From the NCBI GenBank assembly GCA_944321505.1, contig CALULN010000014.1, positions 1 to 64,000 of the forward strand: a stretch of 64,000 nt of DNA, written 5' to 3'. Of this stretch, positions 49,171 to 53,527 are shown piece after piece (the stretch's first letter is position 1; each line of letters begins with the position of its first letter). The notes below the pieces were generated by a model. It was given only the letters and a program-made list of their open reading frames with translations. It did not search any database and was not told the origin of the DNA. Source of the stretch: Candidatus Methanomethylophilaceae archaeon (GTDB taxonomy: Archaea > Thermoplasmatota > Thermoplasmata > Methanomassiliicoccales > Methanomethylophilaceae). Made by a program: the position numbers and the translations under genes.

Positions 49171-50568
49171 TCACAGTCCGTAGTTCGCCGGATCGAACTT
49201 GGAGACCTCCGTGGAGTACCGCCTTAGGCAGGACTCCATGAAAGCGTCCGAATCGTCCGGCAGGGACTCCAGGTCCCTGATCATGCGGTAGAGCTTCTCC
49301 AGCTGCCTCCTGGACAGCCCCAGCTCGCCGCTCCTGTATCCTTCGAGTATGATGTTCGCGCCGGCGATTGCCGCCGCCCTGGCGCGGAGGTAGTGGTCCT
49401 TCCTGTTGTCCACGATGGCCTTCCCCACCGCCCAGGCATTGTCGTAGGAGAGAATGTAAGATTCCGGGCTCCTGACCCGGTCGGAGAGCATGTAGAGGTC
49501 CCTGAGCACCTTCCCGTTGCCGGATGCGGTGGCGGTGTTCATCAGGGAGCACTCGTACCCCAGTGAACCTGCCCAGCAGGCAACGGATGACCCTCCGAAA
49601 TCCGGATGGTACTCCACCGATTCGTCGGACCACAGGTCGCAGCACTGGGCCATCACGTTGCCCATCAGGTCGAAGTGGGCGCAGCCAGCGTTCTTACCCT
49701 CTTGGGAGATGGGGAGGCCGGTGATGGCCTTGACTATGATTCCCTCATAGGCGCAGTCCTTGCCGGGCCCGGTGGCGCCGCATTCGAAAGGCACCAGCGA
49801 CCTGGCCGCCGAAATGCACCTGCACAGGGCGGAGAAGGTCTTCTGGACGTCGTTGTCGAGATACCCGCCGGACATGAACATGACGGTGTTCGCTCCTGAG
49901 CAGGCGGTGTCGCCGCCGGGAACGGTGCGGTTCCTGCGGCAGATGCCGACGAACTCGTCCCAGACGTATTCAGCATCGATGGAGCCGAGGCAGCCCATGC
50001 CGAAGAGGAAGCCCACTATATCCCCCTGTGTGACGGCGTAGTCGCAGATCTCCTTGCCTCCGAGGGTCTCCACGGACAGGACGTCTGCCCCCTGGGAGCA
50101 TGCGGTCTCGGCGGATTCGAACAGCTGCTCCGGATGGCTGCGTATGCTGTCCCTTCCGGGCCTCAGGCCGAGCTCGCATTCCCTGAGGTCGGGGATGGTC
50201 TGGCGCACAGCCAGGTTGATGCCGTATTCCGCATGGCATCCCTCGATGAGTTCCTTCTGCATGGACACTATGTCGCCGGAGGTGCGCTGGTCGGCTCCCA
50301 TGTGGGATATCCACTCCGTCTCCAGCTGGAGGTCGGGGAAGCCCAGATTCACCGCCCGGTGGATTATGTCCTTGGACATGTAGTCCACGAACTCCCTCTT
50401 CAGGCGGTCGGGGGACTGCGTGACTCCGGGACGGGGAGCGTACTTGGCTTCGGGGATCACCCTGCCGGTCCCGACTTTGATTCCAAGGCCGTAGGAAAGG
50501 GGCTTCCTGGAGCTGCCGAAGACCATGTCATCGGCTTTCTGGTAGGCCATGCGGGCGAACCTGGGCAT
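49171..50568 (-). CDS. mtaB: Methanol:corrinoid methyltransferase, catalytic subunit
   Basis: A 465-residue MtaB, a zinc enzyme transferring the methyl group of methanol to the corrinoid of MtaC. Family features include MVFGSSRKPLSYGLGIKVGTGRVIPE, DVLSVETLGGKEICD (zinc Glu), CGATGPGKDCAYEG and GKNAGCAHFDLMGN (zinc Cys candidates). There is no in-frame amber codon, as expected for the pyrrolysine-free methanol enzyme. The ATG follows immediately on the mtaC stop codon. Confidence 0.96.
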   Translation of the reverse strand: MPRFARMAYQKADDMVFGSSRKPLSYGLGIKVGTGRVIPEAKYAPRPGVTQSPDRLKREFVDYMSKDIIHRAVNLGFPDLQLETEWISHMGADQRTSGDIVSMQKELIEGCHAEYGINLAVRQTIPDLRECELGLRPGRDSIRSHPEQLFESAETACSQGADVLSVETLGGKEICDYAVTQGDIVGFLFGMGCLGSIDAEYVWDEFVGICRRNRTVPGGDTACSGANTVMFMSGGYLDNDVQKTFSALCRCISAARSLVPFECGATGPGKDCAYEGIIVKAITGLPISQEGKNAGCAHFDLMGNVMAQCCDLWSDESVEYHPDFGGSSVACWAGSLGYECSLMNTATASGNGKVLRDLYMLSDRVRSPESYILSYDNAWAVGKAIVDNRKDHYLRARAAAIAGANIILEGYRSGELGLSRRQLEKLYRMIRDLESLPDDSDAFMESCLRRYSTEVSKFDPANYGL

Positions 50569-51354
50569 TCAGATCCCTCCGGTGATGTCGTCCCATTCCT
50601 CTCTGATCTCCCGCCAGCCCTTCCCTTTGAGGACCATGTCCGCTATCGGAGGCGTCTGAGGCGCCTTCCTCGAATAGATGCCGCCGTCGAAGGATTCCGC
50701 GTATTCGCGGTTCACGGCCCCGCCGGCGGCCATGTACGGTATGTCCAATCCCGCTGCGTGCAGCTTCTCCGCAGCAGCGGGGAATGCGGGCATGGTCGTC
50801 GTCATGAGCGCCGTCCCGGTCACCATCAGCGGCTTCCTGTCCAGGACTATGCGGACCACCTCGTCGACCGGCACGTCCTTCCCCAGGTCCACCACTTCGT
50901 ATCCTGCGGATCTGAGCATGACGGCGGCGATGTTCTTGCCTATGTCGTGGGGGTCCCCTTCCGCGGCATGCATGACCACCATCCCCTTGGTGACGCGCCC
51001 TCCGGGGATGTGCTTCTCCGCAAGGGAAATGCCGGACTCCATGGTCTTGGCGGCCATCATGACCTCCGGCAGGTAGTAGACGTGCTCCTTGTAGAGGTAG
51101 CCCACGGCGTCCATGCCGGCCACAAGTCCTTTGTTGATGATGTCAAGGGGCTTCACTCCCATCTGGAGCGCCCTGGAGACGGCGGGGCCCACGTCCCTGA
51201 GCCTCATGAACATGACCGATGATGCTACCTCTCCCAGCAGAGGGTCCTGAGGCAACATCCTGGCGGCTACGGTCTCGGGGCGCATCTGCGATTCCGACTC
51301 GATGTCGTAGCGCCTGAGGATGAATCCGTAGTCCACTTTCCGGGGATCGATCAT
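50569..51354 (-). CDS. mtaC: Methanol corrinoid protein
   Basis: A 261-residue corrinoid protein. The helical cap domain contains VKPLDIINKGLVAGMDAVGYLYKEHVYYLPEVMMAAKTMESG. The B12-binding domain has the lower-ligand motif AEGDPHDIGKNIAAVML (DxHxxG) and later VTGTALMTTTMPA. It shuttles the methyl group from MtaB to the coenzyme M methyltransferase MtaA, which is not in this window. First gene of the operon, with an AGGAG ribosome site and a TATA box (CTATAAGCG) near 51390. Confidence 0.96.
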   Translation of the reverse strand: MIDPRKVDYGFILRRYDIESESQMRPETVAARMLPQDPLLGEVASSVMFMRLRDVGPAVSRALQMGVKPLDIINKGLVAGMDAVGYLYKEHVYYLPEVMMAAKTMESGISLAEKHIPGGRVTKGMVVMHAAEGDPHDIGKNIAAVMLRSAGYEVVDLGKDVPVDEVVRIVLDRKPLMVTGTALMTTTMPAFPAAAEKLHAAGLDIPYMAAGGAVNREYAESFDGGIYSRKAPQTPPIADMVLKGKGWREIREEWDDITGGI

Positions 51355-51393
51355 GTCCGCTCCTGAACCGTAAACGGCGTTATGCGCTTATAG

Positions 51394-51409
51394 CGTTCCG
51401 TGTGGAACG
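51394..51409. promoter_or_regulatory. Inverted repeat at the mtaC promoter
   Basis: A perfect 6-bp inverted repeat with 4-nt spacer (CGTTCC-GTGT-GGAACG) immediately upstream of the mtaC TATA box, in the position of an activator or TFB-recruiting regulator site. A methanol-responsive regulator is inferred; none is encoded next to it. Confidence 0.5.
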
Positions 51410-51581
51410 GTCAGTCGGCTGTTATAATCGTATTTAACGGTTTTTATTATCAACATCGATGCTCTATGAACGGGCATGCGAAGATACAGGCCCGTATCCG
51501 CCTGATAAAGCTGTGTTTACAGGCTTGATAGCAGTGAAACGTTCAGCACGGCGGCGAATAGCAGGGGTGTTCCGCAGATGC

Positions 51582-51633
51582 CATATGTATAACGATGCAA
51601 GGCTTATGTATAAGGACTTTTGTTATACATATG
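51582..51633. repeat. 12-bp inverted repeat flanking the TATA box of the transposase-like gene
   Basis: CATATGTATAAC at 51582-51593 and its exact reverse complement GTTATACATATG at 51622-51633, 28 nt apart. Between them TTATGTATAAGG (51604 onward) repeats the core TATGTATAA and is the likely TATA box. The right arm ends one base before the ATG at 51635, where a leaderless transcript would start. No copy of the repeat was found behind the gene, so it looks like an operator rather than transposon ends. Confidence 0.65.
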
Positions 51634-51634
51634 G

Positions 51635-53164
51635 ATGTCTTCCATCGTCTATCTGAAGAACAAGGACACGGGCAAGGTGTACGCCTACCTCAACGAATCC
51701 AAATGGGATCCCGTCAAGAAGAAGTGCGTATGCAAGAGGAAGTGCCTCGGCCATCTTGACCCGGAGACGGGGGACATCGTGCCCAACAGGGGCAAGAAGG
51801 AGAAGGATTATGCTGTGGTGTCCACAGTGGGCACCACATTCTTCCTTGAGCAGATCGCAGAGAGGATCGGCCTGCGGAACGCTCTCAGATCCGCTCTGCC
51901 CGACGACTGGAGGCTGGCCCTCAGCTGCGCCTTCTACCTGCTGGAGGGCCATTCGGTGCTCCAGGGCATCAGGTACTGGTCCATGGACCACCAGACCCCT
52001 TACGGGAAGCCCATCGAGGAGAAGGATGTGGAGAGGCTGCTCTCGAGCATAGATGAGAACACACTGTTCGCGTTCTACCGCGACTGGAGGGACGAGTTCC
52101 ACGGGTCGGACTTCTACATCCTCAGCACCGAGTCCGTATCCTCGTATTCCTCCAGGTCTGAGCGCATCAGCTTCAACGACCTCCCTGACATGACCGTCAG
52201 CCCTACGGTTAACATCAACATGGTCTTGAGCATGAAGGACGACATGCCGCTGGCGTACTCCGTCATCCCCCGCTCTCCCAGGGACCTCACCGACATCAGG
52301 AGGAGGGAGAGCGAGTACCGCTGGCTGGACCTCCCCCGCATCACCCATGTCCTGGACAAGGACTTCTGCAGCAGCGACAACTTCGACAGCCTCACCCGCA
52401 CCAACCAGCGCTTCCTGATACGCGCTCCCCCCGAGTTCCCCCTGGCCAGGGAATCCATCATCAGGGTCAAGGACAGGATAATGGACCTGGCCAACTACCG
52501 CACCATCGAGGGGAAGTCCTTCTTCGTCATGTCCTTCCTGAACTATTGGAAGGGAAGGAAGTGCTACGTCCACATCTACTTCAGCACCGAGGACGCCGAG
52601 AACGAGTTCAGCCTGTTCCTGGGTCTGCTGGAGGAGTGCAGACTGGAGCTGGAGAAAGGGGTGTACGTCCCCGAGCACCGGGACTACTACGACAAGTACT
52701 TCATCATCACCGAGACGCCGGGAGGCAGATCGGTTGTGCAGAACGGAGAGGCCATAATGGCGTACAACGACGTCGCAGGCTTCTTCGTGCTGATATCCAA
52801 CACCGTGAAGGACCCGCTGAGGGCCTTCGGATACTACCTGCGCAAGGACGGGATGGAAGCCAGGTTCGAGAACATCCGCAACCGCCGCGACCGCACCGCT
52901 CTGAAGCTGTACACCGACCAGAACCTATTCGGAAGGGTCTTCCTCCAGTTCCTGGCGGTGACCATGCATTCCCACATCACCAACGTGATGGACGACCATG
53001 CCATGCTCAAGGGGACCGGCTACAGGGACATCCTCCACGAGATGTCCGCCATCAAGAAAGTGTCTATCCCCGGTTTCAAGACCCCGTTCTACACCAACAT
53101 AAACAACGCCCTGCTGGAGGTCATGAAGGCCTTCGGAGTCGATCCCTCGTCATTGCGCTCCTGA
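51635..53164 (+). CDS. IS1634/IS4-like transposase-derived protein, first catalytic Asp missing
   Basis: A 509-residue DDE-transposase homologue of the IS1634 type: an N-terminal domain VYLKNKDTGKVYAYLNESKW, an RNase H-like core and a C-terminal region FGRVFLQFLAVTMHSHI. The usual YDxTSxSSYS motif reads LSTESVSSYS here, with Ser where the first catalytic Asp is expected. The second Asp (HVLDKDFCSSDNF) and the Glu (DGMEARFENIRNRRD) are present. The frame is intact and GC-rich like its neighbours. The start is ATG 51635, leaderless after TATA at 51604. No terminal repeats or target duplications were seen. It may be an inactive insertion sequence or a domesticated DNA-binding protein. Confidence 0.8.
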   Translation: MSSIVYLKNKDTGKVYAYLNESKWDPVKKKCVCKRKCLGHLDPETGDIVPNRGKKEKDYAVVSTVGTTFFLEQIAERIGLRNALRSALPDDWRLALSCAFYLLEGHSVLQGIRYWSMDHQTPYGKPIEEKDVERLLSSIDENTLFAFYRDWRDEFHGSDFYILSTESVSSYSSRSERISFNDLPDMTVSPTVNINMVLSMKDDMPLAYSVIPRSPRDLTDIRRRESEYRWLDLPRITHVLDKDFCSSDNFDSLTRTNQRFLIRAPPEFPLARESIIRVKDRIMDLANYRTIEGKSFFVMSFLNYWKGRKCYVHIYFSTEDAENEFSLFLGLLEECRLELEKGVYVPEHRDYYDKYFIITETPGGRSVVQNGEAIMAYNDVAGFFVLISNTVKDPLRAFGYYLRKDGMEARFENIRNRRDRTALKLYTDQNLFGRVFLQFLAVTMHSHITNVMDDHAMLKGTGYRDILHEMSAIKKVSIPGFKTPFYTNINNALLEVMKAFGVDPSSLRS

Positions 53165-53203: not shown

Positions 53204-53527
53204 ATGGACGGATGCGTCGTAGACGTGGATGCCGGGGTCTGCAAGATGAGGACCCGCATCACCGCGAAGCAGAACGACGAGGCCATGGTGGACCTCGATG
53301 TGGAGAGCGACTGCCCCTATGTCCTCAGGATGTCCTGGAAGTTCAAACCGGTGAATCCCTACACCGAGATCGAGGCATCCATGAGGGAATCCGACGTTTA
53401 CGGCTGGGCTTCGGAGGAGCTCCCCCACGCCGCATGCCCGGTGCCCTGCGCCATCATCAAGGCGGTGGAGGTGGCCAGCGACATGGGTGTCAGAAGGGAC
53501 GTCGCCATCAGATTCGCAGACGAGTGA
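53204..53527 (+). CDS. Conserved small protein of unknown function
   Basis: A 107-residue soluble protein with five cysteines: VVDVDAGVCKMRTRITAKQ, SDCPYVLRM and HAACPVPCAIIKAVEVASDMG. The CPVPC pair and two further Cys could bind metal. A TATA-like ATACAATATTC lies about 30 nt before the ATG. It converges on an HdrD-like Fe-S protein gene with 3 nt between stop codons. I do not recognise the family with certainty; similar short proteins occur in methanogens near methyltransferase genes. Confidence 0.65.
   Translation: MDGCVVDVDAGVCKMRTRITAKQNDEAMVDLDVESDCPYVLRMSWKFKPVNPYTEIEASMRESDVYGWASEELPHAACPVPCAIIKAVEVASDMGVRRDVAIRFADE

Follow-up and report, generated by a model that had tools for sequence, protein, structure and literature searches.

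A predicted catalytically dead relative of IS1634 transposases is a candidate regulator of the adjacent methanol operon in Methanomethylophilaceae

The nuclease-dead TnpB derivatives called TldR are proven transcription factors that use guide RNAs and are linked to host genes (PMC13418256). The protein described here is encoded in the window, i.e., the whole 64,000-nucleotide stretch of DNA that was analysed, and it resembles TldR in that it is transposon-derived, has lost catalysis, is predicted to have kept DNA binding and is linked to a non-transposon gene. In contrast, TldR derives from an RNA-guided nuclease, whereas the window protein is a DDE transposase by profile and fold, has DNA sites of its own, is found in archaea and is a predicted regulator. 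By analogy, it would work most like TldR. Its fold is similar to those of the Tn5 transposase (1muh) and the Tn5 transposase inhibitor (1b7e), the latter being a transposase derivative without transposition activity. The Tn5 inhibitor is, however, a shortened product belonging to a live transposon, while the window protein is a full-length, stand-alone protein. TnpA-REP, of another enzyme class, keeps its chemistry and serves REP sequences, whereas the window protein appears to be an inactive DDE protein beside a metabolic operon. TnpA-REP has been called the first prokaryotic domesticated transposase (PMC8266576). In Methanosarcina acetivorans, proteins of the Msr group act as activators and repressors of individual mtaCB isozyme operons (PMC11218639), and the likeness lies in a dedicated protein tied to an individual mtaCB isozyme operon, with regulation predicted in our case. 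A dedicated regulator per operon is biologically reasonable because the M. acetivorans operons have their individual Msr regulators, but the window protein is unrelated to them, having no Pfam match above the cut-off and a transposase fold.

The archaea that carry the gene are gut and rumen methanogens with methanol and methylamines as substrates. A literature search on domesticated transposase regulators returned no prokaryotic DDE case, which is not proof of absence; the searches also returned no paper naming both IS1634 and Methanomassiliicoccales, and no described regulator of methanol genes in these gut and rumen methanogens. The gene and the positions relevant to catalysis are as follows.

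51635..53164, plus strand: transposase-derived gene (509 aa), predicted catalytically dead relative of IS1634; ATG at 51635, stop at 53162-53164, frame intact
51635..51790, plus strand: codons 1-52, the best conserved N-terminal segment by identity comparison, presumed DNA-binding part
52124..52126, plus strand: codon (AGC) of Ser164, at the first catalytic Asp position by alignment with intact relatives
52355..52357, plus strand: codon of Asp241, second catalytic position by alignment, kept in the window protein
52856..52858, plus strand: codon of Glu408, third catalytic position by alignment, kept in the window protein

NCBIfam assigned the 509-aa protein to the IS1634 transposase family (NF033559) with 127.6 bits against a cut-off of 100, and a Pfam search gave no match above the cut-off and thus no match to a domain of a transcription-factor family. 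The AlphaFold2 model (pLDDT 87, pTM 0.79) had its best PDB matches in the two Tn5 structures named above, and no domain besides the transposase fold was recognized by Pfam or fold comparison. The N-terminal 52 residues showed 68% identity within the family and 54% to active elements, compared with 15-28% in the catalytic core. Gap-free alignment of the window protein segment FYILSTESVSSYS with YYCMDITSVSSYS of a Lachnospiraceae element and with TYALDITSISSYS of an archaeal IS1634 element (G068) placed Ser164 opposite the first catalytic Asp in both cases. All three D-D-E residues were present in 17 of 17 intact IS1634 relatives. Among the 31 full-length members of the family, the first position was never Asp (S in 10, T in 7, N in 4 and other residues, H, Y and L among them, in the rest), the second was Asp in 25 and the third was Glu in 8. 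D241 and E408 are kept in the window protein, yet its relatives indicate that the whole catalytic site is free to drift. The sequence-only reading of this DNA had described an intact 509-codon transposase homologue with Ser at the first catalytic Asp and with the later Asp and Glu remaining, and these descriptions were borne out; an Asp aligned at that position, which would speak against them, is excluded by the 31 members. That reading had also proposed a search for related full-length copies with the same substitution: the first Asp is missing from all 31, but Ser itself is found in only 10.

The family was defined by searching 102 genomes from the archaeal family of the window with a profile. 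Members scored at least 417 bits, except for two copies truncated at contig ends, and a gap down to 139 bits followed; the lowest score of the upper group (G068) belonged to an intact insertion sequence, which was left out of the membership. We found 33 loci, of which 31 were full length, in four genera and with one or two per genome; no member contained a stop codon, and a survey of 300 genomes of the same archaeal class yielded members from this archaeal family alone. In a maximum-likelihood tree, the 31 full-length members formed one clade (100/100) with Lachnospiraceae elements as its sister (97/93). Nei-Gojobori dN/dS values were 0.05-0.33 in eleven pairs with synonymous distances from 0.03 to 1.8. 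The two family copies of the window genome were only 30% identical to each other, unlike the near-identical copies of a mobile element, and no matching active element was found in that genome. Insertion-sequence ends hidden around the family genes were searched for as well, and none were found; the 12-bp end repeats of intact relatives were absent on both sides of every member, with a best match of 3-6 mismatches in 12. Within 400 bp downstream of the members, a half-site of the operator type described below occurred only in G006, in line with the earlier statement that no matching repeat lies behind the gene. The family thus matches the IS1634 profile but lacks the D-D-E triad, the terminal inverted repeats with target-site duplication and the mobility of an IS1634 element, and it shows the single origin, fixed genomic context, purifying selection and loss of mobility of a domesticated gene. 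The proposal that the gene was domesticated, with catalysis lost and the N-terminal part retained, is well supported by the single clade, the purifying selection, the missing ends and the dead site, and we regard the protein as almost certainly catalytically dead and domesticated.

The region directly upstream of the gene contains three related sites.

51581..51593, plus strand: operator site 1, CCATATGTATAAC, left arm of a 13-bp inverted repeat (sequence, conservation)
51603..51614, plus strand: operator site 2, CTTATGTATAAG, where a TATA box is expected, about 29 bp ahead of the start codon (sequence, conservation)
51622..51634, minus strand: operator site 3, inverted, GTTATACATATGG, directly abutting the ATG at 51635 (sequence, conservation)

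The consensus of this element consists of WTGTATAA, a second WTGTATAA 20-21 bp on, an inverted TTATACAW a further 15-17 bp on and then the start codon. A perfect 12-bp inverted repeat forming a symmetrical operator around the gene's own TATA box had been proposed here; the repeat is real, its right arm abuts the ATG and it does lie over the promoter, but its arms are 13 bp long and the operator comprises three sites instead of one pair. The inverted repeat, judged alone within the window, is only mildly unusual: perfect repeats of at least 12 bp with a loop of at most 60 numbered 4; the operator repeat accounted for two of them, in different registers, and block shuffles gave 0.55 on average. 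The significance of the operator comes from its conservation and not from the length of the repeat, since the exact three-site element was found in 22 of the 33 family promoters, including that of the second gene of the window genome, whose protein is 30% identical, and in none of 70,000 shuffled promoters. A chance inverted repeat, against which the repeat alone is weak evidence, was rejected on this conservation at related promoters.

When 29 whole genomes were searched, the inverted site pair occurred at 26 places, 25 of which were upstream of a family gene; it was absent from three genomes without a family gene, and the reversed-pattern control also gave none. The direct site pair gave the same picture in the same genomes, with two stray matches (G095:C22:22567 and G002:C18:3752). 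The lone inverted pair outside a family promoter was TGTATAACAAACTATTATACA (L153 137-157, G006:C118), close to a contig end. A search of the window's own genome for CATATGTATAAC with one mismatch returned 5 matches, 3 of them at the two family genes. A search for operator elements at other promoters had been proposed as a check; almost none were found beyond the family genes, and a genome-wide regulon via CATATGTATAAC was rejected, the two-site patterns being nearly always at the gene's own promoter. Across the genomes searched, the three-site element appears dedicated to the family gene, with no wider regulon of that form. A conserved operator therefore overlaps the gene's own promoter, the arrangement of an autoregulated protein. 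Five A-type genes keep only one clear operator site. In the B-type genes of G005 (L039 8899-9072) and G004 (L040 2022-2195), the three-site element is located some 140 bp ahead of the annotated start, a distance that implies a long leader or a missed upstream feature.

The nearest intact relatives that we found were 1.74-kb elements present in several copies in gut Lachnospiraceae (Dorea, Petralouisia and others; L115-L123, L131), several of which show target duplications of 5-6 bp. Their left end is CCTAATCTCCCGAAATTGTTATACATAGG and their right end is CATATGTATAATTGATACGGGATTTTAGG, and inside both ends lies TTATACATA / CATATGTATAA. The 11-mer CATATGTATAA was also present inside the 17-bp spacer of the elements' own promoter (TTTACA ... 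TATACT), where CATATGTATAA...TTATACATATG lies in and after the -35/-10 spacer and the inverse lies downstream, before the ribosome-binding site. This repetition of the end-repeat core at the transposase promoter is a probable autoregulation circuit of the Lachnospiraceae elements. Additionally, the plasmid-borne IS1634 elements of Aliarcobacter and Carnobacterium (L154, L155) have a promoter inverted repeat that resembles their own inner end, by eye only. The archaeal IS1634 element of G068 (L096 5039-6829, 1791 bp) is intact, with perfect 12-bp ends CCTATTCTCCCG and a target duplication TCAAAC.

Because CATATGTATAA occurs in the ends of the active Lachnospiraceae elements as well as at the promoter of these elements, the archaeal operator is best explained as an ancestral transposase-binding and autoregulatory site that was kept after the ends were lost. 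It fits an archaeal promoter, in that the middle site doubles as the TATA box. The domesticated family shares with IS1634 elements the protein family and the N-terminal segment, and with the Lachnospiraceae elements the CATATGTATAA site found in their ends and at their transposase promoter. In contrast, active IS1634 elements have an intact D-D-E triad, end repeats of the CCTAWTCTCCCG type and target duplications, all of which the domesticated family lacks, and the Lachnospiraceae elements occur in several copies, which the domesticated family does not. Recent multicopy insertion, with this repeat at each end, had been named as evidence against domestication; elements of that kind do exist, but only as distant bacterial relatives with an intact active site, and they point to the origin of the operator and do not refute the domestication. 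From the identity of the operator with the end sites of active relatives, autoregulation of the gene via its own operator is very probable.

The methanol operon lies on the other side of the operator, as the sequence-only reading had stated.

49171..50568, minus strand: mtaB, methanol:corrinoid methyltransferase (PF12176, E 8e-193)
50569..51354, minus strand: mtaC, methanol corrinoid protein with B12-binding domains (domain search)
51355..51634, no strand: divergent intergenic region of 280 bp between mtaC and the gene (coordinates)

The positions of mtaB were determined in these 102 genomes. Linkage was assessed at 31 loci with enough flank, a set that includes downstream-cut copies in G001 and G004 and omits two copies at contig ends. 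All 31 lay within 3 kb of an mtaC-mtaB operon, with a chance proximity below 1% per gene by arithmetic from about two mtaB loci per 1.5-Mb genome, and at 28 of them the gene and mtaC were divergent, their start codons 172-466 bp apart; of the other three, G006 had the gene upstream and in the same orientation, and mtaCB was convergent within 3 kb in G028 and G061. In the two-copy genomes of the window's genus (G000, G002-G005), each mtaCB had its own copy of the gene, and in G004 and G005 two units of mtaCB plus gene stood side by side. The intergenic region measured 261-284 bp in 15 species of one genus. Operons of mtaCB without the gene exist in the same archaeal family, so the gene is not required for mtaCB as such, and the mtaB tree needs two changes of linkage. 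In the divergent regions examined, TGTATAA/TTATACA sites clustered at the start of the gene itself, and a search of the mtaC TATA box for a further operator copy, which would be a binding site of the protein's own at that core promoter, found none.

At the level of sequence, these comparisons establish the dead catalytic site, the domestication and the homology of the operator. Overall, the gene probably encodes a transposase-derived DNA-binding protein that is catalytically dead and regulates itself, and whose most likely role is that of a dedicated regulator of the mtaCB operon beside it. An IS1634-type insertion sequence would have settled beside an mtaCB operon in the ancestor of the archaeal family and been domesticated once. 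The family has lost the ends and the first catalytic Asp, and later often the other two catalytic residues, and has retained the N-terminal segment and the open frame under purifying selection. Sites equal to the transposase-binding sites of active relatives have been kept as the three-site element over the gene's own TATA box and start codon, and the gene has stayed beside mtaCB through speciation and duplication. The protein may still bind CATATGTATAA sites and repress the promoter of its own gene, in the way presumed for the parental element, and would act from the divergent region as a dedicated regulator, activating or repressing, of the adjacent methanol methyltransferase isozyme operon. 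Direct control of the neighbouring mtaCB is fairly likely; its weak point is that, with no site at the mtaC TATA box, the protein would act from about 100 bp or more, or not at all. We lean slightly towards a DDE transposase having turned once into a dedicated methanol-operon transcription factor, with transposon end-binding sites re-used as its operator. If so, this family would be to DDE transposases what TldR is to TnpB and would constitute a new class of archaeal regulators, and DDE transposases, not TnpB alone, would become transcription factors in prokaryotes. It would also give a concrete route, in which ends and active site are lost and the autoregulatory sites are kept. Annotation pipelines label such genes as transposases and would remove them together with mobile elements.

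The mtaC TATA box without a site would also suit a domesticated, self-repressing DNA-binding protein with a target other than mtaCB, e.g., a dominant-negative guard on the ends of incoming insertion sequences, similar to the Tn5 inhibitor. The sites of the protein equal the end sites of active gut-bacterial elements, and one of the fold matches is the Tn5 inhibitor itself. We nevertheless consider such a guard unlikely, as the matching active element was not found in its own genome. It would reduce the linkage to mtaCB to an accident of the ancestral insertion site, kept by descent, but this linkage persists through duplication of the unit, with an own copy per mtaCB in G000 and G002-G005, and one genus shows an almost constant intergenic length. 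Local transcription regulators are usually laid out with a shared, divergent promoter region. This layout makes it improbable that the protein controls only itself and acts on mtaCB products or RNA in a non-transcriptional manner; the operator dedicated to its own promoter and the missing regulon would agree with such an action, but no domain other than the transposase fold was recognized.

Two further alternatives take the transposase ancestry more literally. In G004 and G005, units of mtaCB and the gene occur in tandem, which could reflect a protein that still performs DNA rearrangement with non-canonical residues, e.g., promoting duplication of the mtaCB unit, but no conserved residue takes the place of the first Asp, just 8 of 31 members keep the Glu and the end sequences to act on are absent, which leaves this very improbable. 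Hardly credible is a decaying IS1634 copy that was inherited beside mtaCB by happenstance: the profile does identify an IS1634 transposase and the catalytic residues do erode, but dN/dS stays at 0.05-0.33 up to synonymous distances over 1, the members have no stops and the promoter element is conserved. An ordinary or decaying insertion sequence was accordingly rejected on dN/dS, copy number, fixed context and intact frames. The reading as a dedicated regulator of mtaCB is the one that we prefer.

Further features were observed around the loci. A CTGG[AC]T box lies 100-104 bp before the gene start in 14 of 15 species of one genus (L046, L081-L095). On the mtaC side, 11-12 of the 15 loci of one genus had TTATAAC repeats 37 bp apart, and no TTATAAC occurred in 13 mtaC promoters lacking a family gene; this association with gene-linked loci may be due to descent, the linked loci being orthologues. 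The mtaC promoters without the gene (L143-L150) often have a GGATG...ATCC palindrome beside the TATA box, which is possibly the operator of another mtaCB regulator. Downstream of the transposase-derived gene, the window contains a DUF6951 (PF22263) gene at 53204-53527; ORF clustering revealed that a DUF6951 gene follows in several A-type loci (G000, G002 and G028), and the start of a similar ORF is visible in G003 and G006.
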